From assembly GCA_004297825.1 (NCBI GenBank), contig SCSX01000025.1, positions 1 through 56,767 on the forward strand: a DNA stretch of 56,767 bases, read 5' to 3'. The DNA comes from Spirochaetota bacterium (GTDB lineage: Bacteria; Spirochaetota; UBA4802; UBA5368). The translations under genes and the position numbers were made by a program. Positions 5,402 to 45,535 of this stretch are shown here, one piece after another; within the stretch, counting starts at the first letter, position 1, and every line of letters starts with the position of its first letter. Under the pieces are notes generated by a model. That model did no database searches and was not told the origin of the DNA. It saw only the letters and a list, made by a program, of their open reading frames with translations.

Positions 5402-6985
5402 ATGATACTCGTATTCGACAATATCCTCCTTCCGCCGGGAGATCCCGAGAGCGCGCTCGGTGAAGCCCTGCGCCGGAAATTCCAGATATCGTATGCCGTC
5501 TCGCCCAGGATCACGCGCAAATCGCTGGATGCCAGGGACAAGTCGCGCATCGCCTATCGATACCGCGTGGAATGCGAGGTTCCCGACGACGATGCCCAAA
5601 GGCTCCTCGGGCACGAGGGGGTAGCGCATGCGACGCAGGAACCCCTGCCGGCCGTCCCAAGGCTCCACAGGCCGTTGCGCGTAATAATCGTGGGATCGGG
5701 ACCTGCGGGACTATTCTGCGGGCTCCGTCTCCTTGCCGCGGGGGCGCAGGTTACCATCCTCGAGCGGGGAAAACCGGTCGAGGAACGGATGCACGATATT
5801 AATGCGCTCAGGTCCCACGGAACGCTCGATCCGGAAAGCAACGTGCTTTTCGGCGAGGGAGGCGCGGGGACCTGTTCGGACGGCAAGCTCACCACGCGCA
5901 CCCGCCGGCCCGAGGCCGCGTGGATATTCGAAACGCTTGTCGCCCACGGGGCCCCGGAATCGATCCTGTACGAACAGAAGCCCCACCTGGGGACGGACCG
6001 TCTGGTTAAAATACTAAAGAGCATCCGCGCCGGGATTACCGGGCTTGGTGGCGCGCTCGTCTTCCGCGAACGCGTGATCGACATCGTGACGGAGGGAGCC
6101 GTCGCGAAAGGCGTCGTCGGGACGCACGGGGGCGAGATCAAAGCCGATAGCGTGGTTCTTGCGACGGGGCATTCGGCCCGTGACACGCTGTACATGCTCC
6201 AGGGGAAAGGCGTCCGCATGGAGAAAAAAGGATTCGCCGTGGGGCTTCGCGCGGAGCACCCGGCAGAGCTTATAAATTTCATCCAGTACGGAAAGGCCGC
6301 GCGCGCGGGGACGCTCCCGCCGGCCGACTACCAACTTGCGTATAACGACAGGGAAACCGGGATCGGCGTGTACACGTTCTGCATGTGCCCCGGCGGCGAA
6401 ATCATCAACTCCTCCTCGGAGGACGGATTGCTCTGCACGAACGGGATGAGCGGTTCCGCGCGAAGCGGAGGGTATTCCAACGCGGCCGTGGTCGTAGCGG
6501 TGTCGGCGGAGGCATTGGGGGCCGATGCGCTCTCAGGCGTCGAGTTCCAGCGGGAGATCGAACGGAACGCCTTTGAAGCCGGGCGGGGCGGTTACCGCGC
6601 CCCCGCGCAGCGCCTCACGTCGTTTCTCGAATCCAGGCTCGACGAATCCCTTCCCCGTTCTTCGTACAATCCCGGTGTCACGCCCGCGAACCTGCGCACG
6701 CTTTTCCCCGGGTGGATTTCGCGCGAAATAGAGGCGGGGCTGAAAAGCTTCAATGCGCGCATGAAGGGCTACATCACCCGGGAGGCGCTTCTTATCGGCG
6801 CGGAAACCCGGACCTCGTCCCCGGTGCGCATCGTGCGGGGAGACGATTTCCAGTCCCTGTCTCACCGGGGACTTTACCCCGCGGGCGAGGGCGCCGGCTA
6901 CGCGGGGGGGATCGTGAGCTCCGCGGTCGACGGCGTTCGAACGGCCGACGCCATTTGCAGAAATTGCGGGGAAGATTTGAATTGA
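5402..6985 (+). CDS. FAD-dependent dehydrogenase (COG2509-like)
   Basis: A flavoprotein of about 527 residues. An N-terminal segment of about 85 residues precedes the dinucleotide-binding motif VIIVGSGPAGLFCGLRLLAA, followed by LERG at the end of the second beta strand. The body carries NVLFGEGGAGTCSDGKLTTR and a late FAD-binding segment GLYPAGEGAGYAGGI, both typical of the uncharacterised FAD-dependent dehydrogenases of COG2509. The physiological substrate of this family is not established. ATG 5402 is preferred because AGGGGG lies 10 nt upstream; a TTG at 5366 would add 12 residues without a ribosome site. The gene is divergent from the WD40-caspase gene, and the 197 bp between them must hold both promoters. 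Confidence 0.88.
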   Translation: MILVFDNILLPPGDPESALGEALRRKFQISYAVSPRITRKSLDARDKSRIAYRYRVECEVPDDDAQRLLGHEGVAHATQEPLPAVPRLHRPLRVIIVGSGPAGLFCGLRLLAAGAQVTILERGKPVEERMHDINALRSHGTLDPESNVLFGEGGAGTCSDGKLTTRTRRPEAAWIFETLVAHGAPESILYEQKPHLGTDRLVKILKSIRAGITGLGGALVFRERVIDIVTEGAVAKGVVGTHGGEIKADSVVLATGHSARDTLYMLQGKGVRMEKKGFAVGLRAEHPAELINFIQYGKAARAGTLPPADYQLAYNDRETGIGVYTFCMCPGGEIINSSSEDGLLCTNGMSGSARSGGYSNAAVVVAVSAEALGADALSGVEFQREIERNAFEAGRGGYRAPAQRLTSFLESRLDESLPRSSYNPGVTPANLRTLFPGWISREIEAGLKSFNARMKGYITREALLIGAETRTSSPVRIVRGDDFQSLSHRGLYPAGEGAGYAGGIVSSAVDGVRTADAICRNCGEDLN

Positions 6986-7039
6986 ACTTTAAGGCGCCGG
7001 ATGCATACTACGCTATCAATCTTACCGGGGTGAGATCAT

Positions 7040-11060: not shown

Positions 11061-11182
11061 GGATGACCCTTCTAATCTTCTCGATTATTGTTGACTATTC
11101 ATCACCATTATGCAGAATCTGTGGAACGGTCGATGGCCGTTTTGCCCAGGCTTTTAAAAAAAGCTCGATTCAGGACGTTCGC

Positions 11183-11305
11183 AAATTCTAAGCCCTCTGC
11201 CCGGAGGCTTTTTGACGGGGAAGGGCAGCTTCTTTGAGGAGCACACTTCCGAGGAACACGGTTATGTCGGGACACTATCACCGTGGCGAGGACGCAAATT
11301 CCTAT
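11183..11305 (+). repeat. Structured dispersed repeat, copy A
   Basis: First of three same-strand copies of an element of about 120 bp (others at 12325-12443 and 16603-16718). The 5' half, beginning TAAGCCCTCTGCCCGG, is nearly identical in all three for more than 60 nt. It can fold with CTGCCC (11197-11202) pairing GGGCAG (11223-11228). The 3' half differs in sequence but keeps a hairpin: CACGGT (11257-11262) pairs ACCGTG (11280-11285). The copy ends next to an M23 peptidase remnant. No open frame spans it and I do not recognise the family. Confidence 0.85.
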
Positions 11306-11311
11306 GTATAA

Positions 11312-11563
11312 ATAGCAAAGAATATATTTGGCATTGAAACGACAGGAATGCATTTTTCAGAAAGATATGTTGAAGCTGGGAAAATCGTTTTTCCAGGGAC
11401 CATGATAGGGCGCAGCGGTGCTACTGGAGTTTATTCAACTGGACCTCATTACCATGAACAGATAATTAATCCTTTCACTAATGAGGCTTATAATCCTAGA
11501 ACAAAGAGCTGGATTAAAATTCCGAGGTGCGTTGATCCCGAGAATGGATCTGTGGTCTACTGA
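11312..11563 (+). pseudogene. Remnant of an M23 (LytM) peptidase C-terminus
   Basis: The frame is open from just after repeat copy A (stop at 11309-11311) to the TGA at 11561. The sequence includes ERYVEAGKIVFPGTMIGRSG and then STGPHYHEQI, which match the C-terminal part of M23 metallopeptidases, including the last HxH zinc/catalytic motif. The N-terminal half, with the first His and Asp ligands, is missing. The only good in-frame ATG (11348) would give 71 residues, too short for an enzyme, and no clear ribosome site precedes it. It looks like a gene truncated at the repeat. Its stop overlaps an ATG at 11563, just upstream of the SH3-like lipoprotein, so both were probably once one operon. 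Confidence 0.7.
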
Positions 11564-11580
11564 TGGAGGAGGAAATTAGA

Positions 11581-12324
11581 ATGAAATTAAGCAAAATGGG
11601 AATCGTTGCATGTGTATTGATTCTTATTGGAAGTTGCAATAATAAACAAACAAAAGTTACTTTTAAAGGTGGTATTGTTATTAACGATAACGTTGCATTA
11701 TATAGAGATACCAGCGGCAGTATGCCAGTAGAAATGTTGAAGTATATGGATAAAATTGAAGTAATGGATGAGGAGATTGTTAATAATTTAATCCAAGTAA
11801 AAGTAATAAACGGAAATATTGGTTGGGTAAAAGTAGATGAGGTTTCATATCTAACAAAAGAGTGGATACGGTACACAAAACTAGAAGAAATCGTGTTTTA
11901 TATACCAAATAATATTAATTATCAGTCAATGGGTGGAGAAAAGCGCAAAATAAATAAAATCAATACTCTTGAGAAGGAGTACAAATTCATCAGCAGAGAA
12001 AACACGATTGGAATATTATTCTTAAATGAAGATTATGCGAATCGCTTGAAAATTGAAGAAGAAGGGAAATCCCCATCCATGAAAGCTCTCGGGGCGGAGA
12101 GGGACTACGACGAATTTATTTCATACAATCATAATAACATAGAATCATACTATAAAGCTGGTAAAATTCCTGAAGGGAATCCTTATTACTCGCTAATTAT
12201 AAAAAGAAATAATGGAAAAACAATTATATTTCACATACATGTTAATTTCGATATGAACGATTCACAGGTTAAAACGAGAATCGATATAGCAAAAAAGATA
12301 CTTTTCTCTATTTCAATGAAATAA
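11581..12324 (+). CDS. Lipoprotein with SH3-like domain
   Basis: A protein of 247 residues in A+T-rich DNA unlike its flanks. ATG 11581 is preferred over ATG 11563 because GGAGGAGG (11565-11572) precedes it by 8 nt. The N-terminus MKLSKMGIVACVLILIGSC is a lipoprotein signal with Cys19 as the acylated residue. Residues about 27-95 resemble a bacterial SH3 domain: a GGIVINDNVALYRD start, internal beta strands and a closing GNIGWVKVDEV. SH3 domains of this type bind peptidoglycan, which fits the M23 remnant just upstream. The C-terminal 140 residues are not recognised. The stop codon abuts repeat copy B. Codon use suggests acquisition from an A+T-richer genome. Confidence 0.75.
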   Translation: MKLSKMGIVACVLILIGSCNNKQTKVTFKGGIVINDNVALYRDTSGSMPVEMLKYMDKIEVMDEEIVNNLIQVKVINGNIGWVKVDEVSYLTKEWIRYTKLEEIVFYIPNNINYQSMGGEKRKINKINTLEKEYKFISRENTIGILFLNEDYANRLKIEEEGKSPSMKALGAERDYDEFISYNHNNIESYYKAGKIPEGNPYYSLIIKRNNGKTIIFHIHVNFDMNDSQVKTRIDIAKKILFSISMK

Positions 12325-12443
12325 AATTTAAGCCCTCTGCCCGGAAGCTTTTTGACGGGGAAGGGCAGCTTCTTTGAGGAGCACACTTCCGAGAAGCTGG
12401 TTTATGGCCGGGAGCTTTAACCAGGAAGAGGCCGGAAATTCCT
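12325..12443 (+). repeat. Structured dispersed repeat, copy B
   Basis: Starts directly after the stop codon of the SH3-like lipoprotein. It differs from copy A by a single base (GGAAG for GGAGG) over the conserved 5' half. In the 3' half CTGGTT (12397-12402) pairs AACCAG (12419-12424), replacing the CACGGT/ACCGTG stem of copy A, and TTCCG (12387-12391) can pair CGGAA (12433-12437). Copies A and B align without a gap over the last 60 nt despite many substitutions. Confidence 0.85.
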
Positions 12444-12525
12444 AGATCATAATTCCTATATAGAAAAATGCGGCGTCACTCTGCGACCGGTGTGTCTGGC
12501 GAGGGGAGACGCCCCACTTGTATAA

Positions 12526-15312
12526 TCACTCCTTACCTTCCAGGTATTTTTTTAGATTAGGCATCAATGCCCTGCTCACAATAAGACGCGTATCGTCAGC
12601 ATCATTTAGGAATGCCTCGTAGCGGCCGCTGTCGATATGTGTTACCCTGGCCAGGTATGCAGTGTTTATTATGCACTGTCTGTGTATCCTTACGAATGTG
12701 CGCGGGAGCCTGCGCTCCATATATTTCAGCATCATATTGACCTCCTCATCGCTGCCGGTTTTGTGGATTACAGTCTTTTTCCCCGATGAGGAAAGGTATA
12801 CAATGTCCCTGTATGGTATGATGCAGCTTGTCCCCCTCTCTCTTAACATGAGGCCGGGCTCTTCGGGAAGAAGCGCATTCTTCAGTTTCAGTATGTTCTC
12901 TATGCGGAGTGAGAGCTCCTCCATGTTGAATGGTTTTATTATGTAATCGTTTGCTCCTGCTTCAAAGCCCCTGTTGATATCATCGAGCTGTGATTTCGCG
13001 GTTATCAGTATGACCGGGAGCTCTCCTCGTGACCGGTTCATCCGTATGCTCTTTAGAACGTCATATCCGGAAATGACGGGCATCATCACATCAAGGAGAA
13101 CCAGGTCGAATTTTATATCACCCTGCAGTTTTTCAAGGGCAGCCCTGCCCTCAGTCTCTGTATATATGCAGTAGTTCAGGCCGGAAAGAAAATCGTTAAG
13201 TATCTTCACAGAGACAGGGTCATCATCGACGACAAGAATGGTCGGTCCTGTTTTTTGCCCGATGTCAGCATGTTCAAAACCGGAATCAGATGAAACTGCG
13301 GCCCGGAGTCCTGTAATTGTGCCGTGTAGCATGTGTTCATGTCCCGGGCGTGTATTATCCTGTAACGCGTTAGTAGTAGCCACAGGAAGTGTAAAGGTAA
13401 AGGTCGAACCTTTCCCCGGTTCGGATTTCACGCTGATGGTGCCTCCGTGTAGTTCCACAAGTTTTTTTGTAATTGCAAGACCAAGGCCCGTGCCGCCCCT
13501 GGAACGGGATATTGAATCTCCCAACTGTTCGAACGCATTGAAAATGCGTTCAAAATCTTCAGGCCCGATGCCGTTACCGGTATCGCTTACGGATATCTCT
13601 GCCATGCCTTCACTGTTGACCAGGGAAGAAGCTTCGATAACACCGAATGACGTGAACTTGAGCGCGTTCCCCACAAGGTTGGTCAATATTTGGCGTATTC
13701 GTACCTCGTCTGCAGATACGGCCGCGAAGTCTATCGGGATGCTGTTGCGCAATTCAATGGCCTTACCCTCGGTCACGGGCTGGAGAAGCGAGAACACGGA
13801 GGATACAGTTCCGCGCAGTTCAACCGGTACTGTACTGATAGCCAGACTGCCGGACCTTATGCTGGAAAAGTCCAGTATGTCGTTTACCAGTGACATAAGC
13901 CTTCTTCCGCTACCGGAGATGAGCGAAATGTTCTCCCTGGTCTTCGTACCGAGCTTTTCAGTTCTGTTTTTAAGCATGAGCTCCGAGAGTCCCACAATTC
14001 CATGAAGCGGCGTTTTAAGTTCATGGGATGTATTGGCAAGGAACTCATCCTTCAGCCTTTCGGATTTTTCAAGGCTTTCTATAGCCAGGGCCTGGGCCGC
14101 AATCCTATCCTTCTCCATCCTCCTTATCCGGAGGCTTATGGCGTACGATATGATAAAAGCGGACGTGATCGAGAAAACCGGCCGGGCATATTCGGTAAAC
14201 ATGTTAAACGGCACAAGGTCGATCCTCACAAGGGTATTTGAAAAATTGCTCACCATATTGAGCAGATAAATGATAACAAAGTAAACCGCGATATCGTATC
14301 CCTGGACAAGCCTTATTACCGCGACCGCTACCATTATCAGGTTGGCGGTTATTGTCAGCAGGAAGAAAATGTTCCAGGCCAGTTTGGGAGGAAGCAGGAT
14401 AGCCGCAAAAGCCAGAAGCATAATGATGCAGATAAACGCATAGAATAACCTTGCTGCAGCGGGCAGATCCTCCCGGAGGTTCAGCAGGCTGATTGAAAAG
14501 ACCGTAGCCAATGTGACAGCTATTGACGATAAAAGCATGATAATGACAGTGCGTACCTGTTCCCCCGCGGGAAGAACAAAGAAATACTGAAGCCCTTCGT
14601 TCAGAACGTAATAGAGTATCTGGGAGATTATGAACAGCGTGAAATATAGATAGTCCCTGTCCCTTACTGCTGTGTAAAGAAACAGGTGGTAGAAGAGTAT
14701 TAAAAACATTATGCCGGTAAAAGCGCCTCTGAGTATGAAGTCCAGCTCCATTTCGCTGAATACTTTTTTTTCAGATAAAATGGAAAGCGGTATGATGATT
14801 ACCCCGTCGGATTCAATACGCATATAAACCGGGACAGTTTCACCGGGATGCGCGGCCAGCCTGAATAAATATGATTTATAGGGGACCTCTCTTGAACTTG
14901 CAGGATAAAACGCGCCTGTTTCAGTTTTCCTGTAGCCTCCTTTCGTTTCCGGTATATATGCGGTTACGGACGATATGTTAGGCCATCCATATTTTATAAA
15001 CCAGGTACTCCCCCGATTGTCTGTCTCGGGGAAAGTGACCCTGAACCTTACCCAGTAGATGGACCTTGAGAACCGGAAATTGAGCATGGACCTTTCCGAA
15101 GGTATGAACATTGAAGAGTAGCCAGGTGAACTCACAGTGGAATAATCCAGCCTGCCGCTTTTGTCTTCAAGGATTTCCAGGTTGAGGCCTATGGGGTAAA
15201 CTTCGTTTATACCGTCAATAACTACGGGAAGCGCCCTGTTGTTGGAATAAAGTGGTGCGGCTGCAAGCAGGATCGCAGCATAAATATATAAATATAACGG
15301 GTTCTTTTTCAT
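12526..15312 (-). CDS. 7TMR-DISM hybrid histidine kinase with REC and LytTR domains
   Basis: A multidomain sensor of 928 residues. After a signal sequence (1-23) comes a 7TMR-DISM extracellular beta-sandwich (about 30-180) and seven membrane helices (about 190-395). A HisKA domain follows with the phosphoacceptor His430 in [12 protein letters not shown]. The ATPase domain has its N box (NLVGNALKF), G1 (DTGNGIG) and G2 (GGTGLGLAI) intact. A receiver domain follows ([21 protein letters not shown]), and the last 100 residues form a LytTR DNA-binding domain ([15 protein letters not shown]). A LytTR domain on a membrane-anchored kinase is unusual. The gene is convergent with the lipoprotein at 11581 and lies between repeat copies B and C. 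Base composition is less G+C-rich than the surrounding chromosome. Confidence 0.92.
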
Positions 15313-15521
15313 ATTAGAGCTTTCATTTCTTAAGAATATTATATATCAGATCTTGCAAGCATGAAAATTTCTTATAAAAAGACGTTTCACTTGCTGTTCA
15401 TTCCTTCTCAGTGTATGTCCATTCCGCCCGGGCTTGAATTCTGAAGGTTCCCTGTTTTATAGTAATAAAATATCATATGAAGAAATTATGGGAATGAATC
15501 TAAAGAGGAGCAATGCAGAAA

Positions 15522-16400
15522 ATGAAAAAATTATTTTATTTTATCATGCTGAGTTTATTACTGACCGCCATGTCCGGCGGCTGCGCCGGGGGAGACAGCG
15601 GCGGCGAAACGGACGATGATACATCAGTTATATTTTCCGGTGTAACACAGGTAGGCGGAACATCCGGCACTGCTGACACAACAAGCTTGACTTTGACATT
15701 TAGTGTTGACCCTGCAACATTGACAGAGGACGACATTACCGTTACCGGTGCAGCAAAGGGGACTTTAACGGGTACAGGAATAACAAGAACACTTGCGATT
15801 TCCGGCATAACCGTAGCCGATGGAGCGACAGTTTCTGTTGAAGTTATAAGCCCCGCAGGTTTTGTAATGTCAGGATCACCCCGGACGGCGGTTGTGTGCA
15901 GATTACTGACTATCGGAATGGATTATCTTGGAGGGAAGATCGCGTATTTCTTCGTGTCAGGCGACACTGGGTATGTTCCAGGTGAAACTCACGGCCTCAT
16001 CGCTGCTGCATCTGATCAGGCAAGTAATCTCGAATGGGCTTTAGCTCAAGACAAGATCGGGACAACTAACACGGATATAGGTACAGGCCTTACCAATACA
16101 GAAGCAATTGTAGATCAGAATGATCCGTCACATTCAGGACTTACTACCTATGCAGCAGGGTTATGTGCAGCATATAACGGAGGAGGTTATACAGACTGGT
16201 ATCTGCCGTCAAGATACGAGCTTGAGAAAATATTCGCCAGTAAAGATCTTGTGGGCGGTTATGCTGTGAACAGCTATTGGAGTTCGACGGAGTGCCTCGC
16301 CGGGGACGGCGCGTATGGCCGGCAATTTTGGGGAGGTGGCATAGCGTTTATCTTATTTAAGTACGACAGGATCCATGTCCGGGCTGTCCGGAATTTTTAA
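15522..16400 (+). CDS. Lipoprotein with Ig-like domain and DUF1566-like C-terminus
   Basis: A protein of 292 residues. ATG 15522 is chosen because AGGAG at 15506-15510 is 11 nt away; ATG 15513 would be only 2 nt from it. The N-terminus (MKKLFYFIMLSLLLTAMSGG then C) is a lipoprotein-type signal, followed by a Gly/Ser/Asp-rich linker. Residues about 30-125 form a bacterial Ig-like strand repeat (TLTFSVDPATLTEDDITVTG). The C-terminal 160 residues carry the DUF1566/lectin-like signature: GYTDWYLPSRYELEKIF, SYWSSTE and HVRAVRNF. Such proteins are surface-exposed in many bacteria, but a function is not established. It is divergent from the 7TMR-DISM kinase, with 209 bp between them. Confidence 0.8.
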   Translation: MKKLFYFIMLSLLLTAMSGGCAGGDSGGETDDDTSVIFSGVTQVGGTSGTADTTSLTLTFSVDPATLTEDDITVTGAAKGTLTGTGITRTLAISGITVADGATVSVEVISPAGFVMSGSPRTAVVCRLLTIGMDYLGGKIAYFFVSGDTGYVPGETHGLIAAASDQASNLEWALAQDKIGTTNTDIGTGLTNTEAIVDQNDPSHSGLTTYAAGLCAAYNGGGYTDWYLPSRYELEKIFASKDLVGGYAVNSYWSSTECLAGDGAYGRQFWGGGIAFILFKYDRIHVRAVRNF

Positions 16401-16468
16401 CCATTTAACCTATACAGAGCATTCAATCTAAACTCTCTGGTGTTTATCGCAGCTTCCTTTATAGAAAA

Positions 16469-16496
16469 CATCCCTACTGCTGTCGCAGCAGGGATG
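16469..16496 (+). terminator. Hairpin downstream of the DUF1566-like gene
   Basis: CATCC and CTGCTG pair with CAGCAG and GGATG around a TCG loop, with a three-base bulge on the left arm. It lies 69 nt after the lipoprotein stop. The T-tract after it is poor (GTGCTTGTTCT), so termination is only a possibility. Confidence 0.4.
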
Positions 16497-16602
16497 GTGC
16501 TTGTTCTAAATCGTGCATGGTTACGCTTTTGGCACACCCCTTGCGAAAAATAGCAAGAGTTGTGTCAATCAGCAAGCTGAAACTGCACAACTGGAATTCC
16601 TT

Positions 16603-16718
16603 AAATTTTAAGCCCTCTGCCCGGAGGCTTTTTGACGGGGAAGGGCAGCTTCTTTGAGGAGCACACTTCGAGAAACTGGCAAATGTCCGGGAGCTTTAAT
16701 CAGGAATAGGCCGGAAAG
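16603..16718 (+). repeat. Structured dispersed repeat, copy C
   Basis: Third copy, same strand as A and B. Its conserved half is identical to copy A up to CACACTTC. A one-base deletion follows (CTTCGAG for CTTCCGAG). The variable hairpin is weaker here: CTGG (16676-16679) can pair TCAG (16700-16703). It lies outside any gene, 159 bp before the SRPBCC start. Confidence 0.85.
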
Positions 16719-17480: not shown

Positions 17481-18494
17481 TTACTGGGCGATCTTGTTGA
17501 GGTATGGCGCGGGATCCACGAACTCGGTCCCTATTTTAATCTGGTAGAGGCACAGCGGCCTGGTCGCCTTGCCCGTGCGTCCCACGTAGGCGACGATTTC
17601 GCCCTTTCCCACCATCTGTTCGACGTTCACCGATACACGCTGGCAATGCGAATACACCGTTTCGAAGCCGTACTTGTGCGATACGGACACGGAAAGCCCC
17701 AGAACCGGATCCCACCAGATGTTTTCTATTTTTCCCGGCGCCGTTGCGCGTATCTCCGCGCCGGGGAAGCCGGCGATCTCCACCCCCTGGGAAAACTCCT
17801 TCCTGAACGTATAGGGGGACACGCGGTCTCCGAATTTCGATATAATGTAACCGTCGACCGGCCACAGCGACGGGGTGTGTTCGATGATCTTTTTGCGCGC
17901 CTCCAGGAAGGTCTTGACCTTCTTTAAAACTTCCCTGGTCGTTTTAAGCTCCTTGTCCATCTCCTCGATGTTGAGGACCTCGATGGGGGGCGATTCCTCG
18001 TCGGAGGTTACGTTTTCGCCGTCGGGATTGGGAACCCCGCCCTTGGCCCACAGGGAATCGACATTGCTCCCGGGGGTGAGGGAATACAGGTGTGTGATTT
18101 CCGGTTTCAGCTTCTGAAAAATATCGTAGAGTACATTGATCTCGCCTTTGAAGCGGCCGATCTGTTCCTTGGAGTTTGTGCCGTACATCTTGAGCTTCGA
18201 TATCTCCTTCACCGTGGAGGTATGATTCACTATAATGATGGATGTTATAACGATGGTGATTATGAGCGCCGTCGTGAAGGAGAATATGGCGAAAATCGAG
18301 ATATGAAAATTGACGATTTTTTTCTCGGAATGAGGGATGAACATCACGGTGATCCGCTCCCGGCCTTTTTTGACCATGAGCGCCCACTGCAATTTCATGC
18401 GTTCTGAAAGATCGCCGAAATGATCCGAAAAGAAATCCCGGAGGTTCTTCTGCAGATCGTTCAGATTGGATTCTTTAAAAGGATTTAAGCCCAT
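17481..18494 (-). CDS. Degenerate M23/LytM-domain membrane protein
   Basis: A protein of 337 residues with a cytosolic N-terminus, one membrane helix (about 64-88, FAIFSFTTALIITIVITSII), a coiled region (about 90-215) and a C-terminal M23 fold (about 215-337). The fold is recognisable from ISKFGDRVSPYTFRKEF and VGKGEIVAYVGRTGKATRP. The zinc and catalytic residues are mostly lost: the usual HxGxD is SQGVE, and the last HxH is LCL, with only the His of YSHCQ kept. It is therefore probably not a peptidase. Degenerate LytM proteins such as EnvC and NlpD activate amidases or build cell-envelope complexes, so a scaffold or activator role is plausible. It stands alone on the minus strand. Confidence 0.88.
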   Translation of the reverse strand: MGLNPFKESNLNDLQKNLRDFFSDHFGDLSERMKLQWALMVKKGRERITVMFIPHSEKKIVNFHISIFAIFSFTTALIITIVITSIIIVNHTSTVKEISKLKMYGTNSKEQIGRFKGEINVLYDIFQKLKPEITHLYSLTPGSNVDSLWAKGGVPNPDGENVTSDEESPPIEVLNIEEMDKELKTTREVLKKVKTFLEARKKIIEHTPSLWPVDGYIISKFGDRVSPYTFRKEFSQGVEIAGFPGAEIRATAPGKIENIWWDPVLGLSVSVSHKYGFETVYSHCQRVSVNVEQMVGKGEIVAYVGRTGKATRPLCLYQIKIGTEFVDPAPYLNKIAQ

Positions 18495-44047: not shown

Positions 44048-45535
44048 ATGAAACGATTTATGATTATCATGATGCTCTCGCTGGCGGTGTTCCTGCACTG
44101 CACCGATTACATTTCCGGCATCAAGGACGAGCTTGACCTGGCCCGAAGGGTCTGGTTCCAGGATGCCTACCTCAAAGCCTCGAACGTGGATGCGGGTGAT
44201 AAGTTCGGTGTTATAGTCGCGGTAAGCGGGGATACGATGGTAGTGGGCACGCCCTGGGAATCCAGCAACCAGACCGGGATCACGAATATAGACGGAAGCG
44301 CGGCCACGGATAATGGTGCACTTGAATCTGGCGCGGCATATGTGTATAAAAAGGACGGTTCCGGGAACTGGATACAGGACGCCTACATCAAAGCATCGAA
44401 CGCTGGGGCGAGTGATTGGTTTGGCGTTTCAGTCGCGGTGAGCGGGGATACCATCGTGGTGGGCGCATCCGGAGAAGATGGTTCCGGCGCGGCATATGTG
44501 TTTAAGAAAAACAGTTCAGGAGACTGGATAGAAGATGATCTCCTTAAAGCCTCGAATGCGGAATCGGGTGATAATTTCGGCCATTCAGTCGCGGTGAGCG
44601 GGGATACGATCGTGGTGGGTGCATACGGAGAAGACAGCGGCCAGATCACGATCGACAATAGTGACAATCAACCCACGAGCGTGAATAATTTGGCAAGTGA
44701 TTCCGGCGCTGCGTATGTGTATAAAAAGGACGGTTCCGGGAACTGGATCCAGGATGCCTACCTCAAAGCCTCGAACGCAGAATTGAGTGATCATTTCGGC
44801 TATTCAGTTGCTATAAGCGGGGATACCATCGTAGTGGGCGCAACAGGAGAAGCTGGTTCCGGCGCGGCATATGTGTTTAAGAAAAACAGTTCAGGAGACT
44901 GGATCGAAGATGATCTCCTCAAAGCCTCGAACGCTGAAGCGAGTGATAATTTTGGCATTTCGGTCGCGGTGAGCGGAGATACCATAGTCGTGGGCGCATA
45001 CGCTGAAGACAGCGATCGGACGTTTATTACCAATGATGACGAGCTCGCGAGCACGGATAATTCGGCAGGTGATTCCGGCGCTGCATATGTGTTTAAGAGG
45101 GATGGTTCCGGGAACTGGATCCAGGATGCCTGCCTCAAAGCCTCCAACGCTAGAGCGAGTGATGGGTTTGGCGATTCAGTCGCGGTGAGCGGGGATATTA
45201 TTGTGGTGGGGGCACACTCGGAAAAAAGCGGCCAGACCACCATCACGAATACAGACGGGCTCGCAAGCACGGTATTTACGTCGCCTGATTACGGTGCGGC
45301 ATATGTGTTTAAGAAGGACGGTTCCGGGAACTGGTTCCAGGATGCCTACCTCAAGGCCTCGAATGCGGGTGGGGGTGATTTCTTTGGCTATGTCGCGGTG
45401 AGCGGGGATACGATCGTGGTGGGCGCAATCGGGGAAGACAGCGGCCAGACCACGATCATGAATACAGATGGAAGCGCGAACGCGGATGATTCGGCGGTTG
45501 AATCAGGCGCGGCATATGTGTTTACCTTGAAATAA
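44048..45535 (+). CDS. FG-GAP repeat lipoprotein (seven repeats, probable beta-propeller)
   Basis: A protein of 495 residues. ATG 44048 has GGGAGG at a suitable distance and begins MKRFMIIMMLSLAVFLHC, a lipoprotein-type signal with Cys18. The body holds seven units with the core DxFGxSVAVSGDTIVVGA, each followed by GAAYVYKKDGSGNWIQDAYL or a close variant. Unit lengths alternate between about 45 and about 65 residues. Seven FG-GAP units are the number needed for a closed seven-bladed propeller of the integrin alpha type, which suggests a surface adhesion or binding role; this is an inference. The repeats are strongly alike at the DNA level, so slippage is likely. It sits 38 bp after the FN3-barrel gene and is convergent with the hydrolase gene. 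Confidence 0.88.
   Translation: MKRFMIIMMLSLAVFLHCTDYISGIKDELDLARRVWFQDAYLKASNVDAGDKFGVIVAVSGDTMVVGTPWESSNQTGITNIDGSAATDNGALESGAAYVYKKDGSGNWIQDAYIKASNAGASDWFGVSVAVSGDTIVVGASGEDGSGAAYVFKKNSSGDWIEDDLLKASNAESGDNFGHSVAVSGDTIVVGAYGEDSGQITIDNSDNQPTSVNNLASDSGAAYVYKKDGSGNWIQDAYLKASNAELSDHFGYSVAISGDTIVVGATGEAGSGAAYVFKKNSSGDWIEDDLLKASNAEASDNFGISVAVSGDTIVVGAYAEDSDRTFITNDDELASTDNSAGDSGAAYVFKRDGSGNWIQDACLKASNARASDGFGDSVAVSGDIIVVGAHSEKSGQTTITNTDGLASTVFTSPDYGAAYVFKKDGSGNWFQDAYLKASNAGGGDFFGYVAVSGDTIVVGAIGEDSGQTTIMNTDGSANADDSAVESGAAYVFTLK
44174..45530 (+). repeat. Tandem repeat array within the FG-GAP gene
   Basis: Seven in-frame repeats of about 135 or 190 bp, each containing GTCGCGGTGAGCGGGGATAC or a near copy and GCGGCATATGTGTTTAAGAA or a near copy. 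The last unit has lost one codon (FGYVAVSG against FGYSVAVSG). High DNA identity suggests recent expansion. Confidence 0.85.

Follow-up and report, generated by a model that had tools for sequence, protein, structure and literature searches.

What kind of element is the short repeat that occurs three times in this 56,767-nucleotide stretch of a Spirochaetota genome (the window), and how did its copies come to lie around such different genes? The three copies, R1 (11183..11309), R2 (12323..12450) and R3 (16603..16717), are all on the plus strand, as the sequence-only reading had reported with R2 starting at 12325. R1 is a 128-nt end-type repeat that opens with AAATTCTAAG and finishes with GCAAATTCCTATGTAT, and R3 stops ~13 nt short of the 3' end of the family consensus. 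A scan placed terminator-like hairpins at 11194-11207 in R1 and at 16614-16627 in R3. 

A leader (11091..11182, plus strand, 5' end TTGACTATTCATCACC) is joined to R1 and contains the promoter-like motif TTGACT-16-CAGAAT at 11091-11118, and the order of the array is leader-R1-cargo-R2-cargo-R3. Cargo block 1, between R1 and R2 (11310..12322, plus strand), holds the C-terminal part of an M23 peptidase (11348-11563) and, after it, a lipoprotein-like ORF of 253 aa (11563-12324). In cargo block 2, between R2 and R3 (12451..16602, both strands), the minus strand encodes a hybrid histidine kinase (12526-15312), and the plus strand has an Lcl_C lipoprotein-like ORF (15513-16400). An M23 peptidase gene (17481..18494, minus strand) lies in the flank downstream of R3. 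The copies are intergenic, as first described, yet the stop codon of the 253-aa ORF overlaps R2, its TAA (12324) falling exactly at the R2 start.

R is a discrete recurring unit with fixed ends and a length of ~124-128 bp. In the host genome (4.89 Mb), BLAST with R2 as query gives 14 clear copies, and a sequence-only model gives 33 matches at E<=0.01, many of them grouped in arrays of two to four; chance is ruled out by own-genome E values of 5e-41 to 3e-63 with a window copy as query. The model also found 54 matches in the sister species G001 (MAG CALMJO01), 15 and 22 in two genomes of the same family (G002 and G005), and 15, 16 and 10 in three of the same order (G010, G023 and G034). It reached further than the exact pattern, which, searched in 84,980 genomes, occurred only in the sister MAG apart from one chance match in NaphS2. 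Most of the genomes compared are fragmented MAGs, as is that of the window. Genome-specific profiles from the genomes of the order share AAATTTTAAG...CTTCCGATA...TTATGTC...TTTCCTNGATATT, and the ends of R in other genomes have in common CTTCCGATA...TTATGTC...TTTCCT. A phage or plasmid origin was discarded, since the R pattern had no match in viral contigs and the repeat end of the spirochaete G095 had none in plasmids.

We then considered whether R is a structure. The stems CACGGT/ACCGTG and CTGGTT/AACCAG had been read as compensatory changes; however, their 3' arms are shifted by one column, so they form different base pairs and are not compensatory changes in one helix. RNAalifold returned zero pairs both for the 33 own-genus copies and for 38 cross-species 3' halves from seven genomes; the many-copy check that the sequence-only reading had itself proposed thus yielded no covarying pairs, and its claim of selection on structure is not supported. 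The covariation score of the named stem was 0.151 against 0.148 after shuffling, with no excess, and a register-tolerant helix test was negative overall (observed mean reached by 52/300 shuffles; by subset, 9/300 in the own genus and 185/300 elsewhere). Minimum free energies of R were at the shuffled level, with a median z of -0.8 on the plus strand and -0.1 on the minus strand. Only one structure recurs, a hairpin resembling an intrinsic terminator in the 5' half of R, with 82% of cells paired. This hairpin speaks for an intergenic RNA, either a structured ncRNA or a cis-regulatory one, but R had no family match in an Rfam scan (nine weak matches fall elsewhere), shows neither covariation nor excess folding stability, and is found on either side of unrelated genes; we regard such an RNA, including the new ncRNA suggested earlier, as highly improbable. 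Coding through the repeat, the consensus of which is open in frame 2 (ILSPLPGGFLPGKGSFFEEHTSEKQGYVGELSPERGRSFLDI), was also rejected, the synonymous fraction being equal to expectation and codon periodicity absent. In several R copies (L164, L169 and L174) the terminator loop carries the insert GGCGATGTGCTGAGCCTGTCGAAGC, a palindrome-like repeat, and the similar GGCTCAGGACAAG adjoins R in G034.

The almost invariant 5' half and the variable 3' half of the window copies were borne out: columns 1-70 are 98-100% identical among R1, R2 and R3, and columns 71-126 are 55-62% identical between R1 and R2/R3, with a sharp break at column 70/71, beside the best conserved motif, CTTCCG. Over all R copies, mean identity is 65% in the first half and 62% in the second, that is, equal divergence. 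Copies within one array are often near identical over one half only, and the R pair on host contig C23 has the reverse pattern (85% and 100%) with apparently the same break, as read from the alignment. Since the halves diverge equally across the family and the break falls at 70/71, the copies are mosaic, and the 5' invariance can be explained without selection on the first half. For the mosaic window copies, an additional process, for example gene conversion, has to be assumed.

Cargo DNA lies in rows between R copies that share a strand. In four genomes, 36 of the 37 neighbouring R pairs within 12 kb are on the same strand (p = 3e-10), and the median gap between neighbours is 1.6 kb. The cargo blocks contain mostly unrelated genes and can be antisense, multi-gene or gene fragments; their function is mostly unknown, and they include a HicAB toxin-antitoxin pair, an ECF sigma factor, hydrolases, a MORN protein and kinases. 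The same loci carry different cargo in the host (G000) and the sister species, namely those of efp (C20 / C364), an acyl-CoA dehydrogenase gene (C8 / C200), etfA (C93 / C211) and ilvC (C14 / C552), and between the two efp-locus arrays the sole protein match is efp. The sister orthologue of the M23 gene of the window is directly adjoined by the leader and one R only. On host contig C36 (L039 8051-8130), an ECF sigma factor ORF begins in frame inside a half-length R copy.

The leader is ~90 nt long, has the 5' end TTGACTTTTCATCACC and a promoter-like motif, and stands only ahead of the first R of arrays, later copies being without it. Outside the window, it lies directly 3' of an IS91-type transposase gene or its remnant: on C23 it follows immediately a gene whose zinc-binding and Y2 domains are those of IS91-family transposases, and on C8, C93, C36 and C47 only the 3' tail of that gene is left. 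The sister MAG has a C23-type transposase-leader unit, 80% identical, at another place. Compared with the remnants, the host C23 transposase has a frameshifted C terminus, and the sister gene is split; because the host transposase copies are damaged, the window array is probably either a relic or dependent on mobilisation in trans. The leader and the C23-type R have GTTGACTTTTC and ACCGTTATG in the same order (L044 7608-7734), which suggests that a diverged R core is contained in the leader.

A Y2/IS91 transposase match with R starting ~100-450 nt after the gene was found on G000 C23, G001 C211, G002 C41, G010 C15, G023 C411 and G034 C39, and in G095, G107 (two loci) and G049; in G002, G010, G034 and G023 the transposase matches adjoining R were found independently. 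In the order of the window, the leader is present between transposase and R. G038 has two tandem R copies by the transposase, G185, G031 and G035 have direct repeats at the corresponding place, and on G023 C47 R is at the contig end. The more distant Spirochaetota G095, G107 and G049 carry an analogous ~124-bp repeat, with the end GCAATTTCTTATATACT, ~105 nt past the transposase stop, which recurs downstream around cargo and is like the window R in position, size and end.

The NCBIfam IS91 model NF033538 (cut-off 125 bits) scored 151.1 bits in G095, 147.2 in G023 and 136.3 for G000 C23, with G107a just under the cut-off at 123.5; PF14319 and PF04986 are above cut-off in the C23 transposase, and the HUH motif NPHVH is conserved. 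The two catalytic tyrosines of the IS91 family are spaced Y-x3-Y; the corresponding segment is EYLAAGY (Y-x4-Y) in the order of the window and QYIAFGL, with one tyrosine, in the G095/G107/G049 group. The protein sequences support a place in the IS91 family, with the second tyrosine apparently displaced or missing. The terminus of R, ...TTCCTAT..., may resemble published oriIS (IS91/ISCR ori) sequences. What is observed, then, is a discrete repeat that lies downstream of an IS91-type HUH transposase and bounds one-way arrays, the cargo of which changes from species to species; from the comparative evidence we infer that R works as an ori-type end with capture of cargo. We consider it probable that in Leptospiria/Spirochaetota an IS91-family rolling-circle (HUH) transposon lineage has R as its right, ori-type end and forms arrays of ori-ended cassettes. 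The earlier guess of a mobile structured element or recombination site survives in so far as R appears to act as a transposon end or cassette junction, and loses the selection on structure; the connection to a known transposon end, also raised there, comes from IS91-family association by position and conservation rather than from matching R to a known end in a database.

The complete chromosome of G095 (4,384,015 bp) carries an apparently recent example that would suit a direct test of capture. Downstream of the transposase stand six 124-bp copies, identical and all on the same strand; three are in tandem behind the gene, and cargo blocks of ~0.56, 1.8 and 1.6 kb follow. The sequence past each of the six copies diverges exactly after ATATACT, where the next bases are aaaa, aaat, taaa, gaac, cgag and taag. 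These are junctions within an array and not previously unoccupied target sites; IS91 itself inserts next to the fixed tetranucleotide GAAC/CAAG. One cargo block contains two ~230-bp segments that recur about 150 times on the same strand at C1 3.46-3.66 Mb, which looks like a ~200-kb chromosomal integron or CALIN, and the R array has taken up pieces of it, with integron cassettes among its cargo. Another block contains a purH fragment and two more minus-strand ORFs, and therefore the cargo is not chosen by gene or orientation.

These copies also bear on the proposal that R is a small non-autonomous element inserted singly, with arrays and mosaicism made by homologous recombination and tandem duplication and the transposase incidental. 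Such processes would suit the within-array copies that are near identical over one half, the break at column 70/71, the tandem duplications seen inside cargo and the damaged transposases of the genus. They sit badly, however, with a first R directly behind the transposase in several families, the near-total strand bias, the unrelated cargo in blocks, and the six exactly identical copies of G095 with unrelated cargo between them, and we consider this explanation unlikely.

The arrays resemble integrons and CALINs in that one-way rows of mostly unrelated genes, a HicAB pair included, are each followed by a conserved ~125-bp site, with a fixed first unit and gene stop codons that overlap the site. 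If R were a divergent attC, recombined by an integron integrase since lost, the gene ends abutting R, the leader with its promoter-like motif and a group II intron within one R copy, as reported for attC sites, would also be accommodated. In contrast to integrons, the linked enzyme is an HUH transposase, and cargo may be antisense, several genes or gene fragments. The integron integrase model TIGR02249 had 0 matches above cut-off in the host genome, and the R''/R' boxes were found in 0/33 copies at <=1 mismatch on either strand, whereas 9/9 attC-like sites of the spirochaete G366 passed, a control picked by a pattern that contains part of the boxes. With no integrase match above cut-off and attC boxes absent, membership of the integron family is refuted; moreover, R in G095 is separate from the integron-like array of that genome and encloses pieces of it, so R is not attC, and a true integron is very improbable here. 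The control sites come from an array on G366 C3 (L206; TAACAACT...TGTTAG), and the same contig has eight near-identical IS91-like transposase genes across ~160 kb.

Returning to R as an ori-type end, the transposase would nick the 3' end of R (TTTCCTNGATATT / TTTCTTATATACT), and displacement would proceed leftward through the cargo until it reached the preceding R or halted somewhere arbitrary. The resulting single strand of [cargo + R] would then insert at or behind another R. The nick site at each R end would serve as start, stop and landing point, stacking [cargo + R] units one way, and zero-length units would give tandem RR, as in G095 and G038. R would be a cassette junction in an integron-like arrangement without an integron integrase. 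One-ended transposition accounts for the fixed right end of R and does not alone account for its sharp left end. The full version, in which an IS91-type HUH transposase runs integron-like capture at fixed loci across Leptospiria, each cassette carrying its own ori end for single-strand excision and one-way stacking, is a possibility that we put forward tentatively.

Known systems offer partial parallels. In ISCR elements, the ori end follows the transposase gene and bears promoters that point outward (PMC6218425). When a rolling-circle transposase fails to stop at its end, adjacent DNA is taken along (PMC5714925). The R system is like IS91/ISCR in passing the curated IS91 cut-off, in its HUH motif, in the end-type repeat downstream of the gene, in the promoter-like sequence by the end and in neighbouring DNA apparently captured; it is unlike them in that the end is repeated many times one way with separate cargo between, and in its tandem end-end copies, and apparently unlike IS91 in its second catalytic tyrosine. 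The eukaryotic Helitrons work alike, a bypassed end leading to flanking DNA being carried to new places (Helraiser, PMC4778049), but the protein here is bacterial and IS91-type, end sequence and polarity differ, and membership is not claimed. Neighbour-gene capture by IS91/ISCR is widely cited to explain how resistance genes spread, but the evidence for a transduction mechanism was termed circumstantial in a 2016 paper (PMC4778049); a natural record of captures would exist in arrays where unrelated cargo stands between many identical ends. If true, bacteria would have a second way to build integron-like cassette arrays, one that does without an integrase. A literature search, with subscription papers and preprints outside its coverage, found no arrays of this kind described.

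Group II introns recur near these units. Group IIC introns could have built the arrays by retrotransposition at terminators, leaving remnants ahead of several leaders: group-II-D1D4-3 matches lie upstream of the leader on G001 C200 (110 bits) and G000 C36 (48 bits), and on C23 and C211 the transposase unit has intron-5'-like sequence at its left end. Most R copies, however, are without an intron, the window interval has no intron match, and a full intron is present in one R only (L081); with remnants only at some leaders, introns were rejected as the driver of the arrays, a role that we find scarcely credible. That intron (L081, G001 C18, 4271-6268) lies inside the R copy directly after GGGGTTATG and has an RVT_1 + GIIM ORF with D1-D4 and D5 matches. 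Intron 5' parts or remnants just upstream of leader or transposase were seen at L072 930-1103 (minus strand), L039 7731-7818, L044 ~6150-6247 and L037 ~6945-7000, and the left end of the C23/C211 unit opens with its intron-like sequence after a terminator. Elsewhere in the window, self-comparison of 44152-45524 revealed strong tandem-like internal repeats, in several blocks of 150-675 bp with 73-79% identity.
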